A program made the translations under genes and the position numbers. A stretch of 64,000 bases of DNA from positions 1 through 64,000 of the forward strand of contig DATATI010000070.1 of assembly GCA_036268875.1 (NCBI GenBank), read 5' to 3'. The DNA is from Polyangia bacterium. GTDB taxonomy: Bacteria > Myxococcota_A > Polyangia > Fen-1088. Of the stretch, positions 50,657 to 60,538 are shown in pieces; within the stretch, counting starts at the first letter, position 1; each line of letters starts with the position of its first letter. The notes beneath the pieces are model-generated. The model had not been told where the DNA came from. It saw only the letters and a list, made by a program, of their open reading frames with translations, and did not search any database.

Positions 50657-52090
50657 TCAGCGGGCCTTGGCCCGCTTGCGGGTTTTTTCCGTCGCTGACG
50701 CTTGCTTGAGCGATCCGTTGCTGGGCGCCGTTTGACTGGCCACCACCGCCGATCCCGGCGGCAAGATGGTCAGCACGTCCGGCGACGACGGCTTGCCATT
50801 GCTCACCGCCACCTCCTGGCGCGCGTCGCGGGCCTCGATGTAGTAGTGCAGGAACTTCCCGCTCAAGCGATTCGCCGGGATCACCGCGGTGAACCAGCCC
50901 TTCTTTGACGGCTCCATCAGGACCGCGTTGTAGGGAACCACGCCGGCCGGCCGGTAATAAAAGACGATCAGCTTGGCGCCCACCTTCGGTTGCGCCGCGC
51001 AATGAACGTAGAGATCGGCGCCCGCTGCTGCCTCGTCGGGAACGGTGCAGTGCAGCGGCTCGGGGAAGGTCTTCGGCAGGTCCGGGCCTTCGACCAGCTT
51101 TTCGCGCTCGGTCGCTTCCTTGGTCTCGCGCGCCTTGCGGTCTTTCTCCCTGGTGTCGGCCTCTTGCCAGACCTTTTCCAGTTTCTCCTTGGCGTCGCGC
51201 TCTTTCTTGTCTTCGTCGCGCATGATGGCCAGCTGGTGATCTTTGTCGGCGTTGTCTTTCTCTAGCTGCTGAACGCGCGCCCTCAGATCGGCCAGTTGCT
51301 TGTCGTTGTCCACCTTGGTCTTTTCCAGCTTCTCCTTGGCCTCGCGTTCTTTTTTTTCGTTGGCCTTGAGCGCGGTCAGCTCCTGCTCTTTGTCGGTTTT
51401 TTCTTTTTGCGCCTGCGCCAGCTGGACCTTGCTGTCTGTCAGTTGCTTGTCGGCGTTCTGCTTTTCTTTCTCCGCTTTGTCGCGGGTCGCCTGGGCCTTG
51501 CTTTCGCTTTCTTTGGCCGCCACCAGATCCTTTGATTGCTTCTCTCGTTCGGCCTGGGCGCTCTTGTCGGCGGCTTTCTCCGATTGCTGGTCTTTTTCTT
51601 TGTCGGCCGCGGCTTCTTTGTTGTCGCTCTTTTGAGCCTTGTCGGATTTCTTTGGCTCGACGGGGGCTGGTTCTTTGGTCGCCGCGGTGGCGTCCTGATC
51701 CTCGGCCTTCGAGAAGGCCGCCTTCACCGCCTTCTTGTTCATCTTGGACGGCACCTCGGCCGCCGCGCTGATCCCCAGGGCCTTGACGAAGTCGCTGATG
51801 CCGGCGTCCTTGTTCTTGCTCTCGACCTCGGCCACGCCCAAAAGCACGTAGGTCTGCGCCAGCGCGGCGTGCTTGGAAAAACCGTTGTCGTTGGCCAGCG
51901 TCACCGCCTCTTGCAGCTCGCTTTTCATTTGCTCCCACTTGCCGCTGCCGTAGGCGGTGGTGGCCGCCTGATTGTGGGCTTTGATCTGGTCGACGACGGC
52001 CTTTTGATCAGCGGCCTGGCTGGACGGGGCTGCCGCCAGCAAAACCATCAAACCAACGGCCACGGTGGCGATATGGGCGGGACGGGTCAT
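50657..52090 (-). CDS. Secreted coiled-coil protein with N-terminal TPR-like region
   Basis: 477 residues from ATG 52090 with AAGGAG upstream. Residues 1-27 are a signal peptide (VAVGLMVLLAAAPSSQAA). Residues 28-125 are TPR-like helices. Residues 130-345 are a highly charged Lys/Glu/Asp/Ala coiled coil with many heptads. The C-terminal domain (about 350-455) is beta-rich with a CTVPDEAAAG start, plausibly an adhesin or envelope-binding fold. Function unknown, but the plan suggests a periplasmic rod. A sigma70-type promoter is visible upstream. Confidence 0.8.
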   Translation of the reverse strand: MTRPAHIATVAVGLMVLLAAAPSSQAADQKAVVDQIKAHNQAATTAYGSGKWEQMKSELQEAVTLANDNGFSKHAALAQTYVLLGVAEVESKNKDAGISDFVKALGISAAAEVPSKMNKKAVKAAFSKAEDQDATAATKEPAPVEPKKSDKAQKSDNKEAAADKEKDQQSEKAADKSAQAEREKQSKDLVAAKESESKAQATRDKAEKEKQNADKQLTDSKVQLAQAQKEKTDKEQELTALKANEKKEREAKEKLEKTKVDNDKQLADLRARVQQLEKDNADKDHQLAIMRDEDKKERDAKEKLEKVWQEADTREKDRKARETKEATEREKLVEGPDLPKTFPEPLHCTVPDEAAAGADLYVHCAAQPKVGAKLIVFYYRPAGVVPYNAVLMEPSKKGWFTAVIPANRLSGKFLHYYIEARDARQEVAVSNGKPSSPDVLTILPPGSAVVASQTAPSNGSLKQASATEKTRKRAKAR

Positions 52091-52271: not shown

Positions 52272-53618
52272 TCAGGGATCGATCTGATGGCGCCGCAAAA
52301 GTTCCCGGAGGTGACTGCGGTCCATCTGTCCCAGGCGCGCGGCCAGCGACAGATTCCAGCCGGCGTGTTTGATCAAAGATCGCAGATACATCCGCTCCCA
52401 GTCGGCGACCGCCCGATCCTTGGCGTCGCGAAATGAAACCCCAAGGTCGAACTCTGTCGAATCGTCCAGCAGAGCCGCTCCCGCGCTGCTTGGTTCGGAG
52501 GGCGGCGTTCCCAGGCCCGGGTCGAAGTCGCCGAGCAAGATCGCCTTTTCCACCGCGTTGCGCAGCTCGCGGATGTTGCCCGGCCAATCCTTGCGCTTGC
52601 TCAGCGTCCGTTTGATCCCTTCCAGCAGCGCGGGATCCAGGTCGGCGCGCGCCCGCTTGGCGAATTGCTCGATGAGCGGCGGGATGTCCTCGCGCCGTTC
52701 GCGCAGCGGCGGCAGGCGCAGCCGCAAGGCGTCCAGCCGATAGAAGAGATCGGCGCGGAACGACCCGAGCTCGACGCCTTCTTTCAGATCGCGGTTGGTG
52801 GCGGCCACCACCCGCACGTCGATCTGCACCGACTTGGTCGATCCGACGCGCTTGATCATCCGCTCTTCCAGCACGCGCAACAGCTTGGGTTGCATGTGCA
52901 GGGGAAGCTCGCCGATCTCGTCAAGGAAGACGGTCCCGCCGTGGGCCGCCTCAAACGCGCCGATCTGCCGCTCGGTGGCGCCGGTGAAGGAGCCGCGCTC
53001 GTGACCGAACAGCTCGCTTTCGATCAAATTGGGCGGGATGGTGCCGCAGTCGACGATGATGAACGGGCCTTCGGGGTGCGGGCCGGAGCGGTGGATCATC
53101 TCGGCCAGCAGCGTCTTGCCGGTGCCGGTCTCGCCTTCCAGCAGAACGGTGGCGCCGGCGTTGGCCACTTTGGGCAGCACGCCCAGCAACTGCCGGACCG
53201 CCGGGCTGGTTCCCAAAAGCCGCACGTCCTGGGTGGCGTCCGACGAAGGGTTGCTCTCCGCCAGCACCGACATCACTTGCAGCGTGCTGCTGCCGATCTG
53301 GATGGGAACCAGCGGCGTCAGGTAGGCGCGCTCGACGAAGCAGCCGCCCACCTGCGTGCCGTTGGTGCTGCCGAGATCGCGCAGCATCAGGCCGTGCGGC
53401 GTCGATTCAATCACGCAGTGGAAGCGCGAAACGGTGGGATCGGACAGCGCCAGATCGTTCGCCGACGCCTTGCCGATCCGAAACTCGCGCGCTTCGATGG
53501 CTCGATTGGCGCCGACGCTGGGGCCGCTGACGACGGCCATCCGGAACGATCGCGTGGCCGGGGGCTGATTGTACGAGCCAGAGACGATCGACGTCCGGAG
53601 CTCACGTTCTGCTTCCAT
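52272..53618 (-). CDS. FHA-domain sigma54-dependent transcriptional activator
   Basis: 448 residues from ATG 53618, preceded by GGGAGG. The FHA domain (about 25-118) has RIGKASANDLALSDP, VSRFHCVI and STNGTQV, the phosphothreonine-binding residues. The AAA+ domain has Walker A GETGTGKT (162-169), GSFTGA (209-214; usually GAFTGA) and Walker B GGTVFLDEIGEL. A C-terminal helix-turn-helix (about 410-445) finishes the protein. It would be switched by a Ser/Thr kinase, and two kinases are in the window (24003, 54371). The Ala to Ser change in GAFTGA is the only deviation seen in the sigma54 contact loop. Confidence 0.94.
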   Translation of the reverse strand: MEAERELRTSIVSGSYNQPPATRSFRMAVVSGPSVGANRAIEAREFRIGKASANDLALSDPTVSRFHCVIESTPHGLMLRDLGSTNGTQVGGCFVERAYLTPLVPIQIGSSTLQVMSVLAESNPSSDATQDVRLLGTSPAVRQLLGVLPKVANAGATVLLEGETGTGKTLLAEMIHRSGPHPEGPFIIVDCGTIPPNLIESELFGHERGSFTGATERQIGAFEAAHGGTVFLDEIGELPLHMQPKLLRVLEERMIKRVGSTKSVQIDVRVVAATNRDLKEGVELGSFRADLFYRLDALRLRLPPLRERREDIPPLIEQFAKRARADLDPALLEGIKRTLSKRKDWPGNIRELRNAVEKAILLGDFDPGLGTPPSEPSSAGAALLDDSTEFDLGVSFRDAKDRAVADWERMYLRSLIKHAGWNLSLAARLGQMDRSHLRELLRRHQIDP

Positions 53619-53711
53619 CGAGACCTCCCTGGAATCAGATGCGCGTGACCAACCAGTTTGTTCCCAAACACTAGGACGATTGCCCTCCTTTTGTCTATGA
53701 CTGTTGTTTAT

Positions 53712-54278
53712 TCAGGCAGCGCACGCGTCAATGACAGTTCCCGCGCTCAATTGTTTGGCTATCTGTTTTCGTGCGCGATGGCGGCGCACTCTCAATGTGT
53801 CGGGACGCAAGCCGGTCAATTCAGCCACTTTCACCGTCGGCAGGCGATTGACCTCGCACAGCAAATAGACTGTCCGATAGTGCGGGGCCAAGGTGTCGAT
53901 GGCGGCCCGCAACTTCTCCAGAGAACGGTGGGTTTCCAGGGCCTGCAACGGATCAGGCGGTGCGGTGGTGATGCCTTCCCAATCAAATGACTCTTCGCGT
54001 TTGGCCAATCGTCCCCGTGAGCGCCAAAGATGCCGCACCACGTTCAGCGTGACTTTCAACAGCCACGCGCTCGGGCTGCCGACGTCATTCAAAGACGATC
54101 CGCGCCGGTGAACGATCAAGAAGACTTCTTGAACCACGTCCTCGGCGTCACTGGTTGACCTGGTCAAGCGGGTCGCCCAGCGACTGACTCGCCGAGCGTA
54201 GTCGCGATACAGCGCGGCGGTATCAGGCGGGGCGCAAATGGTCGCTGAGGCGCATTCCGAGGCGGTGTTGATCGACAT
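53712..54278 (-). CDS. ECF sigma factor
   Basis: 188 residues from ATG 54278 (an in-frame TTG lies 30 bases upstream). Region 2 runs about 22-95, with the intact DAEDVVQEVFLIVHR block at 44-58, and region 4 runs about 115-180 (ALETHRSLEKLR, PTVKVAELTGLRPDTLRVRRHRAR). It lacks an adjacent anti-sigma gene. Instead, a Ser/Thr kinase gene lies 92 bases upstream on the same strand. Kinase-controlled ECF groups usually have a changed DAED motif; here it is intact, so direct phospho-activation of that site is less likely. An RBS-blocking hairpin precedes it (54279-54318). Confidence 0.92.
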   Translation of the reverse strand: MSINTASECASATICAPPDTAALYRDYARRVSRWATRLTRSTSDAEDVVQEVFLIVHRRGSSLNDVGSPSAWLLKVTLNVVRHLWRSRGRLAKREESFDWEGITTAPPDPLQALETHRSLEKLRAAIDTLAPHYRTVYLLCEVNRLPTVKVAELTGLRPDTLRVRRHRARKQIAKQLSAGTVIDACAA

Positions 54279-54318
54279 GCCTCTTTGCAACAGCAACCGA
54301 CGTACCAAGCAAAGAGGC
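54279..54318 (-). promoter_or_regulatory. Perfect 10-bp hairpin masking the ECF sigma start
   Basis: Read as minus-strand RNA: GCCTCTTTGC (54318-54309), a 20-base loop, then GCAAAGAGGC (54288-54279), directly joined to the ATG at 54278. The 3-prime arm contains the AAGAGG ribosome binding site, so the stem would hide it. A translational switch or a thermosensor is possible. It could also be a binding palindrome for a protein. Confidence 0.6.
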
Positions 54319-54370
54319 GGTCGCGCTGCGGGTCATGCTGGTGGTCGCAGCGCGGTGGAGGTTCCAGCCT

Positions 54371-56209
54371 TCAGGTACGGGCCACCGCCTCCCGAAAGGC
54401 GGCGGCCACCGGCGGCTTGGCGTAACGGCGAGAGAGGGGAACGTTTGGATCGATTTTCAACGCCTGGCGAAATTGCTCGATGCCCAGGTGCGGCTGCTTG
54501 AAGCCGCTCACCAGGACGATGCCCAGATCGGCATGGGCGATCGCCGCGATCGCGTGTCTTTGCAGACGCGCCCGCCCAGCGACGGTCAGCGCTGCCTGCA
54601 GCAGCGCGCGGGCGGCTTCGACGTTGCCGCGCTGATAGGCCAGCATCGCCTTGTTGTTCAGGGCGGCGATCTGCGCCACCGCTTGCTGGCGGGCGGCCAT
54701 CGGGGTGATCGTCTTGCGGCCGCGTCGAGCGTCGGCGGGCGGCGCTTCGTGGTCGACGGCGAAGACGGTCGGTCCGTCGGCAGCGGGCGTGTCGTCTTCT
54801 TCTTGGTCGGCGCTGGTCGGCGCGATTTCCAGCGCCGCCAGTGGAACGAACTCGGGCGGGTGAACCGCCCGGCCAAGCTGGATCACCGCCGGCGGCGTGG
54901 ACCGTCGCAACAGCGCGCGGCTCGGCCCCGATGAGATGGCCATGCCGGCCAGCGCGGCCACCAGCAGACCAAGGCCGCTGAAGCGCCGGCGAGGCGACAG
55001 CCACCCTAGAAAGCGCGTGATCAGCGCCGGCATCTTGCGCGGTAAGCGTGGCGCCGGGCGAGCCGGCAGATCGTGGCCGCCCATGATCTCGGCGACTCGC
55101 CGGGCCCGCTGGCCCAGCACGTCGCCGCTGACGCCTTGAACCCACTGACCGATCTCGGTGGCGCTGGCCACGTCGATGGCGTCGATGATCGCCTGGGCGA
55201 AATGCCGCGCCGTCGGGGGGCGCCGCCCGCGGTCGCGCTCCATCGCCTGCAGCACCACCAGATCCAGCGCCGGCGGCACGGCGGGATTGAACCGGCTGGG
55301 CGGCGGTATATCACCGGACAAGATGCTCACCCAGACCATGCGCGGATCGTGGTGGCGGAACAATCGCCGCCCGGCCAGCAGCTCCCACAGGACCACGCCG
55401 GCCGAGAACAGATCGGCGCGCCGATCGATCTTCTGAAAACGGATCTGCTCGGGCGCTAAATAAGCAGGCTTACCGCCGCGATCGCGCTCGCCGGTGGGCA
55501 GGTCTTGCATCTTCGCGCGCGCTACCCCGAAGTCCAGTACGTGGGCCACGCCGTCGGTGCCCACCATGATGTTCTGCGGTGAGATGTCGCGGTGGACGAT
55601 CTCCAGCGCGGCGCCGTCTTCGGTGGTCGCCTCGTGCGCCGCCTGCAGGCCGCGCAGCACTCCCACCATGATTCCGGCGGCCACTACCGGCGCCGGCGCG
55701 CTGCCGGCGTGAATCGATCGGTTCAAAAGATGCGACAGGGTTTCGCCGTGCACGTACTCCATCACCAGGCACAGCTCGCCCTGCGCGGCGCGCACCACGA
55801 AATCCAGAGGCGCCACCACGTTCGGGTGATGCACGCGCGACGCCAGCCGACCTTCGTCCAGGAACATCGCCACGAAGCTGGGATTCCAGGCCAGCTGCGC
55901 GTGCAGCTGTTTGATCGCCACCACCCGCGGCACGCCCGGCTCGATCGAGCGACCAAGGTGCACGGTGGCCATTCCGCCGCGGGCGATCTCTTCGTAAACC
56001 TCGTAGCGATCCTCCAGGCGACCAAGATCAGCGGCGAGATTGGCCGGGTGCTCCCGATCCGCGACGTCGAGTTGCAGATCGCGGCGGCGTTGCCACGGCG
56101 TCTGTTCGCTATGCCGGTGGCGCCCGTCGGCCTTGGTCAGCGCGGTGATACCTTCGTCCCAGGCGGTGGGGTGAGGCGGTGGCATTTGCGATCGCAGTTG
56201 GTGCGCCAT
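54371..56209 (-). CDS. Ser/Thr protein kinase with membrane anchor
   Basis: 612 residues from ATG 56209, two bases after the upstream stop. The kinase domain (about 66-345) has a Gly loop IARGGMATVHLG, catalytic Lys100 in VVAIKQL, HRDISPQN at 206-213 and DFG at 226-228, with APEQ. A single membrane segment lies near 410-428 (FSGLGLLVAALAGMAISSG), much shorter than in the 24003 kinase. The C-terminal part has a Pro/Ala linker and TPR-like helices (about 520-605, AAARALLQAAL, IEQFRQALKIDPN). In this operon it sits between a barrel protein and the ECF sigma factor. Confidence 0.92.
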   Translation of the reverse strand: MAHQLRSQMPPPHPTAWDEGITALTKADGRHRHSEQTPWQRRRDLQLDVADREHPANLAADLGRLEDRYEVYEEIARGGMATVHLGRSIEPGVPRVVAIKQLHAQLAWNPSFVAMFLDEGRLASRVHHPNVVAPLDFVVRAAQGELCLVMEYVHGETLSHLLNRSIHAGSAPAPVVAAGIMVGVLRGLQAAHEATTEDGAALEIVHRDISPQNIMVGTDGVAHVLDFGVARAKMQDLPTGERDRGGKPAYLAPEQIRFQKIDRRADLFSAGVVLWELLAGRRLFRHHDPRMVWVSILSGDIPPPSRFNPAVPPALDLVVLQAMERDRGRRPPTARHFAQAIIDAIDVASATEIGQWVQGVSGDVLGQRARRVAEIMGGHDLPARPAPRLPRKMPALITRFLGWLSPRRRFSGLGLLVAALAGMAISSGPSRALLRRSTPPAVIQLGRAVHPPEFVPLAALEIAPTSADQEEDDTPAADGPTVFAVDHEAPPADARRGRKTITPMAARQQAVAQIAALNNKAMLAYQRGNVEAARALLQAALTVAGRARLQRHAIAAIAHADLGIVLVSGFKQPHLGIEQFRQALKIDPNVPLSRRYAKPPVAAAFREAVART

Positions 56210-56211
56210 GA

Positions 56212-57642
56212 TCAATTCCCTCCCAGCGTGGGCCGATAGGTGAGGCCCATGGTCATCGACACGTACTCGTCCAGAGCGCCGCCCGCGATCAGGCTGTCGC
56301 CCGGCTGCACTTTCAGATCGAACCCGTAGCGGCGCAGGCCCACGGCGACGAACAGCTCGACGTCGTCGTTGAACGCATAGCCGGCGCCCATTGTCAGATC
56401 GATGCCGCGGGTGACGGCGCGCGGAAATCGATCGGCGTCGTTCAGCCGCCCGGCCGTCAGCACGTACAGGTAATCGGCGCTGGTGCGCATGAAGGCCTGA
56501 CGGGACAGCGCCAGTTGCAGTCCCATTCCGGCGCGAATCACCCGGTAGTCGACGTCGGGCGCCACCGTGCCGACGTTGGCGGCGAAGGTCTCCGCCAGGT
56601 AGCCACCGCGCGGGACCAGGTCCACCGGGCCCAGCGCCGCCCGATAGCGCACGCCCAATTCGTATCCGTGCACATCGGTGCGCGCGCGCCCGTCCGAGCC
56701 GGTCTGCTCGGTGGTGACGCCCATGGCATAGGTGACGTTGCCAGTCAGGCCGAACCCGGCGATCCAGTCGTCGCGCGTGGCTTCGACCAGCGCGAACGGG
56801 TGGAAGGCCATCTCGATGGTGATGGCGGTGGCGCGATCCAGTCGATAGGCCGGGATGTTGCTGAAGTTGTCGGTGAAGGTCATCGACCGACTGAACACGC
56901 GGCCGCCGGCGCCCAGTTCAAGATACGGGCGCGGCATGTTCGCGCCGGGCAGGTCGCGTGGTTTCTCGTCGCTGGTTTCGGCTTCGACGTCGTCTTCCTT
57001 TTCTTTGTTGGCTTGCGCCTTGCTCGGTTTTCGCGCCGGTTTGGCCGCCTTGTCGCCGTCTTCGTCGTGGTCGCCTTGCTGGTGCGAACGGGCGTGGACC
57101 GGCGGGCGGGCCTTCACCCGAACCTCGGCGTCTTCGTCGTCGGCGCTGTCGGCCGCGCGATTGGCCAGCAGCACCTGCAAGCGGTGCGGCGTGGCTCGGG
57201 CCACCGTGGCGGTCAGGCCGTCCAGGCGGCGGTTGGTGACGTCGTAACGAGCCACCGCTTCCCCGGTCTCGCCGTTGCGGACGATCATCTCCACGCGCCA
57301 GTTCTTGTTGCGCCTGACCGTCGCGGTGACGAACGCCGCCACGTTCAGCGACCGCCCGACCTCGGCGAAGTCTTCGTCGCTGCGCAGGCGCACGCCCGAC
57401 TTGCGGGCGGCCTCCAGCACCTGGGCGTCGGGGACCAGGTAATACTGGCGCAGCAGCGCGCTCTCGACGGCGTCTTGCACCACCGCACCCTGCGGTCCGC
57501 GGAACGAATCGATGGCGACCCGCTGCGCCAGATCGCTGGCCGCCGCCGGCGCCGCCGCTGCCATCAGCAGCGCCGCGAGCAATCCAAACCCGCTGGCCGT
57601 CGCCTCCAAGCTGCGCCTGCGTCGATTTTTTTTCATGACCAT
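56212..57642 (-). CDS. Putative outer-membrane beta-barrel protein
   Basis: 476 residues from the ATG at 57642 (shared with the upstream TGA, as TGATG). Residues 1-36 are a signal peptide (LLAALLMAAAAPAAAS). The N-terminal periplasmic region (about 37-170) has a TolB-N-like ALLRQYYLVPDAQVLEAARKS. A highly charged, Lys/Glu/Asp linker spans about 180-245. The rest (about 250-476) is a repeated alternation of aromatic and small residues, ending in a final strand YVSMTMGLTYRPTLGGN, as in barrels. No plug or SUS-type sequence. It probably spans the outer membrane. Confidence 0.72.
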   Translation of the reverse strand: MVMKKNRRRRSLEATASGFGLLAALLMAAAAPAAASDLAQRVAIDSFRGPQGAVVQDAVESALLRQYYLVPDAQVLEAARKSGVRLRSDEDFAEVGRSLNVAAFVTATVRRNKNWRVEMIVRNGETGEAVARYDVTNRRLDGLTATVARATPHRLQVLLANRAADSADDEDAEVRVKARPPVHARSHQQGDHDEDGDKAAKPARKPSKAQANKEKEDDVEAETSDEKPRDLPGANMPRPYLELGAGGRVFSRSMTFTDNFSNIPAYRLDRATAITIEMAFHPFALVEATRDDWIAGFGLTGNVTYAMGVTTEQTGSDGRARTDVHGYELGVRYRAALGPVDLVPRGGYLAETFAANVGTVAPDVDYRVIRAGMGLQLALSRQAFMRTSADYLYVLTAGRLNDADRFPRAVTRGIDLTMGAGYAFNDDVELFVAVGLRRYGFDLKVQPGDSLIAGGALDEYVSMTMGLTYRPTLGGN

Positions 57643-58367
57643 CACTTTCCCCCGCTGACCTTGGCAATGGCGGTGACCGCCCAGTCGCTGACACAAGCGA
57701 TCTCTGCGGCGGTGAGCGGTGTCCCGCCGGCGGGCATCTGGACGCCGCAATCGGTGACGGCGCCGGCCAGCTTTTGGAAAAGCAAACCGGTCGGTTTGCC
57801 GCTGGTCAGCAAGCCGGCGACGAGCGGCTGGCTCTTGCAGGTGGAAGTCTTGTTCACCATGCGCGCGCCCAAGCCCGTCGACACCAGATCCAGATTTTTC
57901 GTCGGGGCGGCGGCGCCGTGGCAGCCGCCGCAGCGGTTGCTGAAGATGTCGGTCAGCACGTTGACGCCGGTGGGACAGGCCACCGCCGCCGCGGTGCCGG
58001 CCTCGCCGATCGCCGAACCGCTGTCGGTGCCGATGGTGCCGCCGCCGTCAGCGGTCGGGTAGCCAGCGCCGCCGGCGTCGGGAGCGGCGCCGTTGCCGCC
58101 GCTGCCGGTGGTGCTGCCGGTGCCCGACGCTGATGCTTGTCCGCCGGTGCCGGTCGAGCCTTGGTTGCCCTGGCTGCCTGCCCAACCGCCGCTGCCGGCG
58201 CTGACCGTGTTGTTGTTATTGCTGGTGCCGCCGCTGGTGCCGCCGCCGTTGTTCGCGGGCGGCGTGGTTCCGGCTCCGCCGTCGGCCAGTGGATCGAACT
58301 CCAGGTGACCGACACAGCCGGTGACAACGACAAGACCGACGACCAGGGCGCTTCCTCGTGCGATCAT
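57642..58367 (-). CDS. Lipoprotein c-type cytochrome
   Basis: 241 residues from ATG 58367 (overlapping the upstream stop as ATGA). The signal ends VVTGC (Cys 18), so it is a lipoprotein. A long Asn/Gly/Ser/Thr linker occupies about 30-125. The C-terminal domain has one haem-binding CGGCH (146-150) and a later Met in VQMPAGG that could be the second axial ligand. Some Cys residues besides the haem site may pair (CPTG, CKSQ, DCGVQ, IACVSDW). It likely transfers electrons at the outer or inner membrane surface. Confidence 0.83.
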   Translation of the reverse strand: MIARGSALVVGLVVVTGCVGHLEFDPLADGGAGTTPPANNGGGTSGGTSNNNNTVSAGSGGWAGSQGNQGSTGTGGQASASGTGSTTGSGGNGAAPDAGGAGYPTADGGGTIGTDSGSAIGEAGTAAAVACPTGVNVLTDIFSNRCGGCHGAAAPTKNLDLVSTGLGARMVNKTSTCKSQPLVAGLLTSGKPTGLLFQKLAGAVTDCGVQMPAGGTPLTAAEIACVSDWAVTAIAKVSGGK

Positions 58368-60382
58368 TGACACAACCCCCGGACGGCAGCGGCGTTGAAG
58401 GTCTTGTTGCAGAAGCGCTTGGCCTCGATCTTCGGGGCCAGGGCCCGCCAGGCGCAGACCATGTCGGCGCGCGACACCAGCGGATCGGCGGTGGTGCGCG
58501 GGAAGCTCCGGTTGGTGGGATCATTGGCCAGCACCGTCGCCTCGAAGGCGGCCGGATCCTGATTGAACTCGGCGGCGACGCCGCGGAAGCCCAGATTGGA
58601 TTCGTATTCACCGTCCAGCACGACCAGGTCGGTGTATTCCGTCGCGCCGAGCGGCGGGCCGCCGCCGTCCAGCGAATTGACGATGCCACGATAGCGGGCG
58701 CTGTCGGCGACGAACACGTCGGGCATGAACACTGGCGGGTAAAGCGCGGTGATCTCCTGGAACTCGCGCACCTGGAACGCCGAGACGTCGGCGCTGATGA
58801 AGCTGCGCATCTCGTCGGTGCGGCGCGGCCGGACCATCCCGCCGTTGCCGTGGCAGCCAAAGCAGGAGATCCCATTTTCCACCACCGCGCCCGGCCGGCG
58901 GATGTCGCGCACGATGGCGGTGTCGGCGACGGCCAGCTTGTTGCCAGCGCTGTTGATCAGCATGTAGCCCTGCATGCCGTTCGGCATCGAGAAGATCACC
59001 TCGCCGGCGTCGTTCTCGAACGTGTGGACGAAGTTCTGGCGATCCACCGCCGTCGGCCCCAGCGGGTTGGCGAAGATGTCCTCGCGACCGGTGTCGGTCT
59101 TGAAGTCGTAGCTCACCCACAAGTACTGGCCGCCGTTGCCCAGGTGGCGTTCCGCCATCCGGTTGTGCAGCGAGACGCCCGAGCGAAGGACGGCGAAGCG
59201 CACCAGGTTCTCCGGCTCGGCTTGACCCGGATGGTTGATATCGTTGGCGATGTTCACGCCCACCTGCTGCGCCAGCTGGTTCAACGTCGCCGGCAGATTG
59301 ATCAGAGTGTCGTAAAGCGGCGCGCGCGAGGCGGTGTCCCAGAACCAGTCGGCGCGCACGAACGGCGCTTCTGTTCCGAGCTCGGCGTACAGCGACCGAT
59401 GTCCGGCCAGCGCCGAGGTCAGACAGTACGGATAAAATCCGGTCAGCTGATCCCACACGGCGTTGTTCCAGCCGAGATCCGACAGCCGCACGCGAAAGAT
59501 CGAACTGCGCGAATCGATCGGGACCATCGGGACGACGGTCCCGCGGCGCGACACCGAGTTGACGGCGAAGGCCAGCAGGTTCTTGGCCACCGTCACCTCG
59601 CTGTCGGGACGGCCCATGTCGATGAAGTGCGCCAGGCTGAAGTAACGAAAGTCCGACGACAGCGAGCGCAGCTGCAGCACGTCCGCGTTGATCTCGTCGA
59701 GGATGTCCTCGTCGGTGCGCGGCTCGAGGATCGGGCGCTTGAGGTTTTGAATCCAGGTGCGCAGGATGGCCACCTCGGCGGCGGAAACACGATCGCCTTG
59801 TGGCGGCATGTCGCCGCGCACGACCACCCGATCGATCATGCGCGACGTGGTGGGGCTGCCCGGCACGACGATCTCGGCGTCGATCAGACGCGACAGATCC
59901 AGCACCGAGCCCCAGCCGCCCAGATCGCCGACGCCGTAGGTGTGGCAGGCCGAACAGCGCGCCTGCAGGATGGTCGAGACGTCGGCCGGAATGGCGCCGG
60001 GGGTGACCTGCGCCGGCGGCAGCGACTGCGGATCGTTCATCGTGCCGGTCATGCTGACGGGCGTGGTGGTGCCGATGGCGCCACCGTCACCGCCGTTGCT
60101 GGCGGCCGGGGTGTTGTTGGTGGCGGGCACGTTTCCGCTGCCGTTGGTTGCGCCCGGATCGTCGGTGTTCGATCCTGACGGCGTGTTGTTGCCAGCGCCG
60201 CCGCCGGCGTTCGTGGTGTTGCCGGCGCCCGCCGTCGCCGAAGAATCACCAGCGGGGATTTGCCGTCCGGTGTTGACACAGCCATTGGAGCCGCCGGCGC
60301 AGAGGGCCAGCGATACGCCCAGGATGGTCAGATCGTCCTTGAGATGCCGAGAACGGACAACGACCGAGGTCCATCGAGACAT
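58364..60382 (-). CDS. Large secreted di-haem cytochrome c-like protein
   Basis: 672 residues from ATG 60382, preceded by GGGAGG. An N-terminal export signal (about 15-35, LTILGVSLALCAGG) is followed by an Asn/Gly/Thr linker to about 130. The first haem motif CSACH is at 143-147 and a second CFGCH at 507-511. Between them lies a conserved block of about 300 residues (SDFRYFSLAHFIDMGRP, LYDTLINLPATLNQLAQQVG). MPPQGD after the first site may supply the Met ligand. The layout resembles the cytochrome-like domains of Planctomycetes/Polyangia. Its 3-prime end overlaps the next gene by four bases (ATGA), so the two cytochromes are coupled. Confidence 0.82.
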   Translation of the reverse strand: MSRWTSVVVRSRHLKDDLTILGVSLALCAGGSNGCVNTGRQIPAGDSSATAGAGNTTNAGGGAGNNTPSGSNTDDPGATNGSGNVPATNNTPAASNGGDGGAIGTTTPVSMTGTMNDPQSLPPAQVTPGAIPADVSTILQARCSACHTYGVGDLGGWGSVLDLSRLIDAEIVVPGSPTTSRMIDRVVVRGDMPPQGDRVSAAEVAILRTWIQNLKRPILEPRTDEDILDEINADVLQLRSLSSDFRYFSLAHFIDMGRPDSEVTVAKNLLAFAVNSVSRRGTVVPMVPIDSRSSIFRVRLSDLGWNNAVWDQLTGFYPYCLTSALAGHRSLYAELGTEAPFVRADWFWDTASRAPLYDTLINLPATLNQLAQQVGVNIANDINHPGQAEPENLVRFAVLRSGVSLHNRMAERHLGNGGQYLWVSYDFKTDTGREDIFANPLGPTAVDRQNFVHTFENDAGEVIFSMPNGMQGYMLINSAGNKLAVADTAIVRDIRRPGAVVENGISCFGCHGNGGMVRPRRTDEMRSFISADVSAFQVREFQEITALYPPVFMPDVFVADSARYRGIVNSLDGGGPPLGATEYTDLVVLDGEYESNLGFRGVAAEFNQDPAAFEATVLANDPTNRSFPRTTADPLVSRADMVCAWRALAPKIEAKRFCNKTFNAAAVRGLCQ

Positions 60383-60538
60383 GAAACACCTCCCGAGCAG
60401 GAGACTCGTTGGATGGGACCGGCGTCCCACCATTCGTGATGTTCCCGCCGGGATGGAAAATGTTTCAGCGACCGAGGTCGGGTCTTAACGCGTCCGTTGC
60501 CGGGCGCCGCGTTGGCCGTCGGGATAAACTGGGCAGCC

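Follow-up and report, generated by a model that had tools for sequence, protein, structure and literature searches.

Among extracytoplasmic function (ECF) sigma factors, several groups are encoded beside Ser/Thr kinases. In ECF43, represented by EcfP-PknT of Vibrio parahaemolyticus and EcfK-PknS of Xanthomonas citri, the sigma gene adjoins that of a transmembrane (TM) Hanks kinase with no adjacent anti-sigma gene; the DAED motif is replaced by a phosphorylatable threonine motif, and the sigma factor is activated by the kinase; the portions of these papers that were available do not mention haem proteins as part of ECF43 systems (PMC8999054, PMC13147305). Further kinase-linked groups (ECF59, ECF61, ECF62, ECF217 and ECF283) are proposed, in the available part of one of these sources, to be regulated by kinases through an unknown mechanism, and they keep DAED-like residues (PMC8999054). 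For most bacterial Ser/Thr kinases, and for the ECF factors linked to them, the signal received outside the cell has yet to be identified. The locus described here lies in a stretch of 64,000 nucleotides (the window: positions 1 to 64,000 of contig DATATI010000070.1, Polyangia bacterium, assembly GCA_036268875.1), in which five open reading frames (ORFs) on the minus strand encode, in order, a di-haem cytochrome that we call diCytA (60382-58364, 672 amino acids (aa)), a lipoprotein cytochrome that we call CytB (58367-57642, 241 aa), a possible barrel protein (57642-56212, 476 aa), a Ser/Thr kinase (56209-54371, 612 aa) and an ECF sigma factor (54278-53712, 188 aa).

An initial annotation, made from the sequence of the window, had proposed that an envelope redox or oxygen signal passes from the haem proteins through the kinase to the sigma factor, and had noted that no system of this exact composition is known to have been described. 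The literature that we searched does not contradict the latter statement, which is not proof of novelty because most subscription journals were outside its coverage. Our analysis suggests that the row may be a mosaic envelope-signalling operon in which diCytA acts as a haem sensor feeding the kinase, a reading that we favour tentatively and place just short of an even chance.

The diCytA family and its coupling to signalling genes

The diCytA protein (58364..60382, minus strand) is predicted to be exported, and consists of a Gly/Ser/Asn-rich N-terminus (about residues 1-126) followed by a di-haem c domain (about residues 130-650), the first cytochrome domain of which matches Pfam Cytochrome_CBB3 over the cut-off (E 1e-6). 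Both of its haem motifs were located as initially annotated, CSACH at residues 143-147 (59942..59956, minus strand) and CFGCH at residues 507-511 (58850..58864, minus strand). An alignment of 58 diCytA sequences, which represent at least five phyla, shows each motif in 58 of 58, and C143, C146, H147, M192, P193, H413, C507, C510 and H511 are invariant, M192 being a candidate for the sixth ligand of the first haem. Judged from this alignment, the retention of both motifs in 58 relatives is not due to chance, and the CxxCH motifs together with the conserved axial-ligand candidates identify diCytA as a predicted c-type cytochrome, which would carry haem at both sites. A profile search with 14 sequences recovered at least 450 relatives in the wider genome-contig collection, the best of them in Planctomycetota, followed by Rhizobiales, Acidobacteria, Poribacteria and Myxococcota.

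The domain has no named family over most of its length. Its AlphaFold2 (AF2) model is confident, mostly near pLDDT 90, and a Foldseek comparison of diCytA with the PDB found no relative of solved structure with an E of 0.001 or lower. A sequence search of the PDB gave ordinary cytochrome c matches to the first haem domain only and nothing convincing for the second-haem domain. For residues 361-550, cytochrome c'-beta ranked first in VIA-align (7zqz and 9htv), with a weak Z of 4.9 over 102-106 aligned residues. The cytochrome P460/c'-beta fold binds NO and CO (PMC10318465) and is the best structural match to the second-haem region of diCytA; however, the Z is low and sequence support does not extend beyond CxxCH, as that region has no Pfam match to P460 and profile comparison aligns just 12 columns around CxxCH. 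Separately, Cytochrome_P460 domains were found in 119 of 310 genomes of the class, and none was found in the genome of the window.

We propose a haem sensor feeding the kinase because diCytA is repeatedly coupled to signalling, through fusions, adjacent kinases and an ECF operon. In two planctomycete genomes, a kinase, a TM segment and diCytA are joined in one reading frame; the kinase motifs HRD and DFG and the two haem motifs are all intact, and the two fusions are 38% identical to each other over 855 aligned columns; in the window, the kinase and diCytA are separate proteins of one row. Six Nannocystis-type loci carry a divergent ECF gene, a kinase, in some cases a further gene, diCytA and a second kinase. 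Another genus has a divergent ECF gene, a kinase and diCytA; in a third, diCytA is followed by a kinase on the same strand, with an opposite-strand ECF gene on the other side; and at one locus an ECF gene follows diCytA by 4 bases. Counted by locus type, a same-strand kinase domain lies within 1.2 kb of diCytA in 5 of about 19 types in the class, against about 0.027 expected per locus (binomial P ~1e-4) and 0 of 29 barrel-centred control loci; these numbers serve as a guide, because the adjacency thresholds and the grouping into locus types were fixed after inspection of the data. Afipia and Bradyrhizobium share the conserved order ECF, 223-aa TM protein, S8 protease, OmpA protein and diCytA. 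On inspection of the alignment, the ECF proteins of the diCytA-linked lineages look like members of different subfamilies, and the link between diCytA and ECF factors therefore probably arose more than once.

Other observations concern the same loci. The neighbours of one planctomycete fusion are a double truncated-globin gene (L175:1220-2704) and a divergent ECF gene. A third ORF, at L270 in genome G241, encodes a Ser/Thr kinase fused by way of a membrane helix to a pair of simple cytochrome c domains. The Afipia diCytA (L201:9827-12121), which sits after the S8 protease and the OmpA protein, bears a C-terminal DUF4384 domain.

The diCytA family is of greater interest than this single operon. 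Were the sensor reading true, a kinase with the di-haem domain as its extracytoplasmic half would offer a concrete input that can be tested spectroscopically (redox state, NO, CO or O2), and the fused planctomycete proteins would allow the sensor to be tested within one polypeptide. A wider proposal, which we regard as rather doubtful, is that the diCytA proteins constitute the founding family of a c-type, extracytoplasmic sensor with two haems; this sensor, composed of a cytochrome c domain and a ligand-binding haem domain that may be P460/c'-beta-like, would feed Hanks kinases and ECF or sigma-54 regulators in several phyla, would sometimes be fused to the kinase, and here would be tied to the outer membrane by CytB and the barrel protein.

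Integrity and conservation of the five-gene row

The order, the strand and all of the junctions agreed with the initial annotation: diCytA and CytB overlap by 4 bases (ATGA), CytB and the barrel gene meet in TGATG, a 2-base gap precedes the kinase gene and a 92-base gap precedes the sigma gene. The close packing of the first four genes on one strand is beyond chance. Codon usage backs each of the five ORFs, weakly, since the codon model was trained on these very genes. A divergent gene bounds the upstream end of the row. The end at the sigma gene is uncertain, and the row may continue into two further genes on the same strand, encoding an FHA-domain sigma-54 activator and a TPR/coiled-coil protein.

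Several results weigh against the reading of the row as an operon with a haem sensor at its head. The initial annotation had looked to other Polyangia for the same neighbourhood and had named its restriction to one genome as the outcome that would count against the unit; the five-gene order was found in this genome alone. We accordingly rejected one conserved operon of five genes, the order being unseen in the diCytA loci from 318 class genomes and in the 80 loci from the genome-contig collection. The diCytA gene, present in 19 of the 318 class genomes, is missing from all 17 of the other genomes sampled in the family, and it adjoins a barrel homologue in none of the class loci fetched, the window excepted. 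Most of the diCytA genes read, in Planctomycetota, Labrys and Poribacteria, have no kinase or ECF gene nearby, and the protein may therefore serve a separate function as an enzyme. No kinase or ECF gene was found close to the CytB-barrel loci elsewhere. Finally, the adjacency of kinase and ECF genes across 92 bases is not clearly above chance: this genome of 6.15 Mb has about 95 kinases and 59 sigma region-2 matches, numbers at which about 0.6 same-strand kinase-then-ECF pairs are expected at such a distance.

The last estimate, together with the unconserved order, speaks for the explanation that two unrelated units, one of haem proteins and barrel protein and one of kinase, ECF factor and sigma-54 activator, abut by chance in a genome with many kinases and ECF factors. 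We consider this improbable, since just 2 bases separate the barrel gene from the kinase gene and both the linkage of diCytA to kinases and its fusion to them recur independently. The row looks instead like a mosaic assembled from parts, of which, as far as the compared loci indicate, sub-modules alone recur.

In a rival explanation, the signal runs the other way. If the haem proteins and the barrel protein were the output, they would form an envelope electron-transfer or detoxification module controlled by the kinase and by the ECF factor, the sigma-54 activator or both. The widespread CytB-barrel pairs without regulators and the many diCytA genes without a kinase or ECF gene are what this explanation predicts, and in Afipia and Bradyrhizobium diCytA stands last in an ECF operon that already holds the TM partner of the sigma factor, as a target gene would. 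In the fusions, however, the di-haem domain occupies the usual site of kinase sensor domains, and we regard an output role of the haem proteins and the barrel protein as rather unlikely. Even as an output, diCytA would still be a widespread unnamed di-haem family that is controlled by ECF factors in some lineages.

The kinase and its candidate targets

The kinase (54371..56209, minus strand) is a Hanks-type Ser/Thr kinase of 612 aa, with a kinase domain at residues 69-340 (Pkinase, 2.5e-32), a membrane helix at about 410-428 assigned from hydropathy, and C-terminal TPRs at about 504-610 (TPR_12, 4.2e-7). HRD and DFG are intact, as had been claimed, and with the membrane helix and an extracytoplasmic domain, the topology being predicted, the protein has the features of a transmembrane Hanks-type kinase. 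According to the sensor reading, the exported diCytA, perhaps in concert with CytB and the probable outer-membrane protein, would use its c-type haems to sense the redox or ligand state of the envelope and would signal to the kinase via the periplasmic TPR domain of the latter; the kinase would then phosphorylate a cytoplasmic regulator, which may be the FHA/sigma-54 activator, the ECF factor or both. In this scheme, the role of diCytA as a sensor and not a regulated product, the contact through the TPR domain, the regulator that the kinase phosphorylates and the kind of signal are all inferences.

The sigma factor (53712..54278, minus strand) is a short protein of 188 aa with regions 2 and 4 only, as is general for ECF factors, and both regions are intact as initially annotated (Sigma70_r2, 9.5e-16; Sigma70_r4_2, 1.1e-10; both over the cut-off). 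It shares with ECF43 a neighbouring Hanks kinase, encoded 92 bases upstream on the same strand, and none of the seven genes at the locus was recognised as coding for a membrane anti-sigma factor. In contrast to ECF43, its region 2.2 motif, SDAEDVVQE, is intact, and an ECF43-type mechanism was ruled out because DAED is kept. Retention of DAED suggests that the sigma factor does not need phosphorylation for binding RNA polymerase and likens it to ECF59, ECF61, ECF62, ECF217 and ECF283, as far as these groups are described in the available part of the source (PMC8999054). For the closest relatives of the sigma gene in the family, the next gene mostly encodes a TM protein; three of these proteins were scanned, and C-terminal TPRs were found in two, with a weak TPR match in the third. 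The window differs from this canonical arrangement of an ECF factor with a TM partner or anti-sigma factor, in that no TM gene follows the sigma gene, whereas a kinase-TM-TPR protein precedes it.

A second candidate target, unmentioned in the initial annotation, is the FHA-domain sigma-54 activator (52272..53618, minus strand, 448 aa; FHA, 6e-14; Sigma54_activat, 2.5e-65), which is encoded 93 bases downstream of the sigma gene and is likely associated with the row. FHA domains bind phospho-threonine, and the activator is a candidate reader of this mark. Activators of this kind also occur near diCytA or barrel genes in L052, L078, L084, L092 and L321: with diCytA and kinases in L084, L078 and the relatives of L078, with diCytA in L321, and with a CytB-barrel pair in L092. 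In the same genome as the window, L052 (G000:C29:114000-132000) contains paralogues of the kinase, the FHA/sigma-54 activator, the barrel protein and the TPR protein, with no diCytA and no recognised ECF gene.

The kinase might thus act mainly via the FHA/sigma-54 activator, with the ECF factor independent or secondary. This possibility concerns the output step only and is compatible with diCytA as a sensor. The ability of the FHA domain to bind phospho-threonine, the recurrence of such activators at the loci above and the DAED motif of the sigma factor all argue for it; on the other side, several Nannocystis-type loci have an ECF factor, not an FHA activator, as the nearest regulator, and a separate promoter may sit in the 93-base gap. 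We judge it plausible, if somewhat less than evenly so, and consider the ECF factor and the FHA activator about equally likely as targets of the kinase. The haem-protein-to-kinase half of the proposed path is therefore better evidenced than the kinase-to-sigma half. The linkage of haem protein to kinase and to ECF factor gains from the fusions, the Nannocystis-type loci and the Afipia/Bradyrhizobium operon; the transfer from kinase to sigma factor, which the initial annotation had included, is weakened by an adjacency near chance, the retained DAED and the rival FHA activator.

Three intergenic gaps contain a GGAAC element: 60383-60480 before diCytA, 54279-54370 before the ECF gene and 53619-53711 before the FHA activator. 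We do not put it forward as an ECF promoter, as the -10 element and the spacing do not fit, and a search for sigma-70 promoters found none. On the same contig beyond the window there is a second ECF gene (G000:C70:67582-68094), followed by a gene for a 381-aa protein. Downstream of the FHA activator, the TPR/coiled-coil exported protein (50657..52090, minus strand) is of doubtful membership in the unit, and it was rejected as a core member because its orthologues in the family adjoin no other gene of the unit.

The CytB-barrel pair

CytB (57642..58367, minus strand) is a predicted lipoprotein of 241 aa, with the lipobox VTGC and a single-haem cytochrome c domain; its haem motif CGGCH (57918..57932, minus strand) was read in the sequence as claimed, and its match to Pfam Cytochrome_CBB3 (E 0.008) is below the cut-off. 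The protein encoded next to it (56212..57642, minus strand) has a signal peptide, an alpha/beta domain at about residues 37-160, a charged linker and a C-terminal beta domain at about 230-476. The identities assigned initially to the other four genes were sustained, and this protein can be called a barrel provisionally: its match to OMP_b-brl (E 0.11) is below the cut-off, its relatives reach 0.0063 at best (2 of 13), its single-sequence structure model is uninformative (pLDDT 35), and a sequence search of the PDB with it gave nothing convincing.

Relatives of the barrel protein are present in 129 of 241 class genomes, and in many of these the gene just upstream of the barrel homologue encodes a small lipoprotein-like cytochrome, often with a 4-base overlap between the two. 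On the evidence of these gene orders, the CytB-barrel pair is conserved in the class. A second CytB-barrel copy is situated between fumarase-type and DinB-type genes, names assigned by eye, in this genome and in others of the family. The pairing of a single-haem cytochrome with a probable outer-membrane barrel resembles Cyc2-type cytochrome-porins as described in the accessible part of the source (PMC8406198). The window differs in having two separate genes joined by TGATG and a barrel for which the evidence is weak.

Met-Pro near the C-terminus is conserved in the relatives of CytB despite variable spacing of the haem motif. Beside barrel homologues, this spacing is mostly CX4CH, with CX2CH and CX3 also seen and probably CX5CH in one case (L051, L054-L057, L090, L092, L093, L095, L097, L098, L101, L104 and L107).

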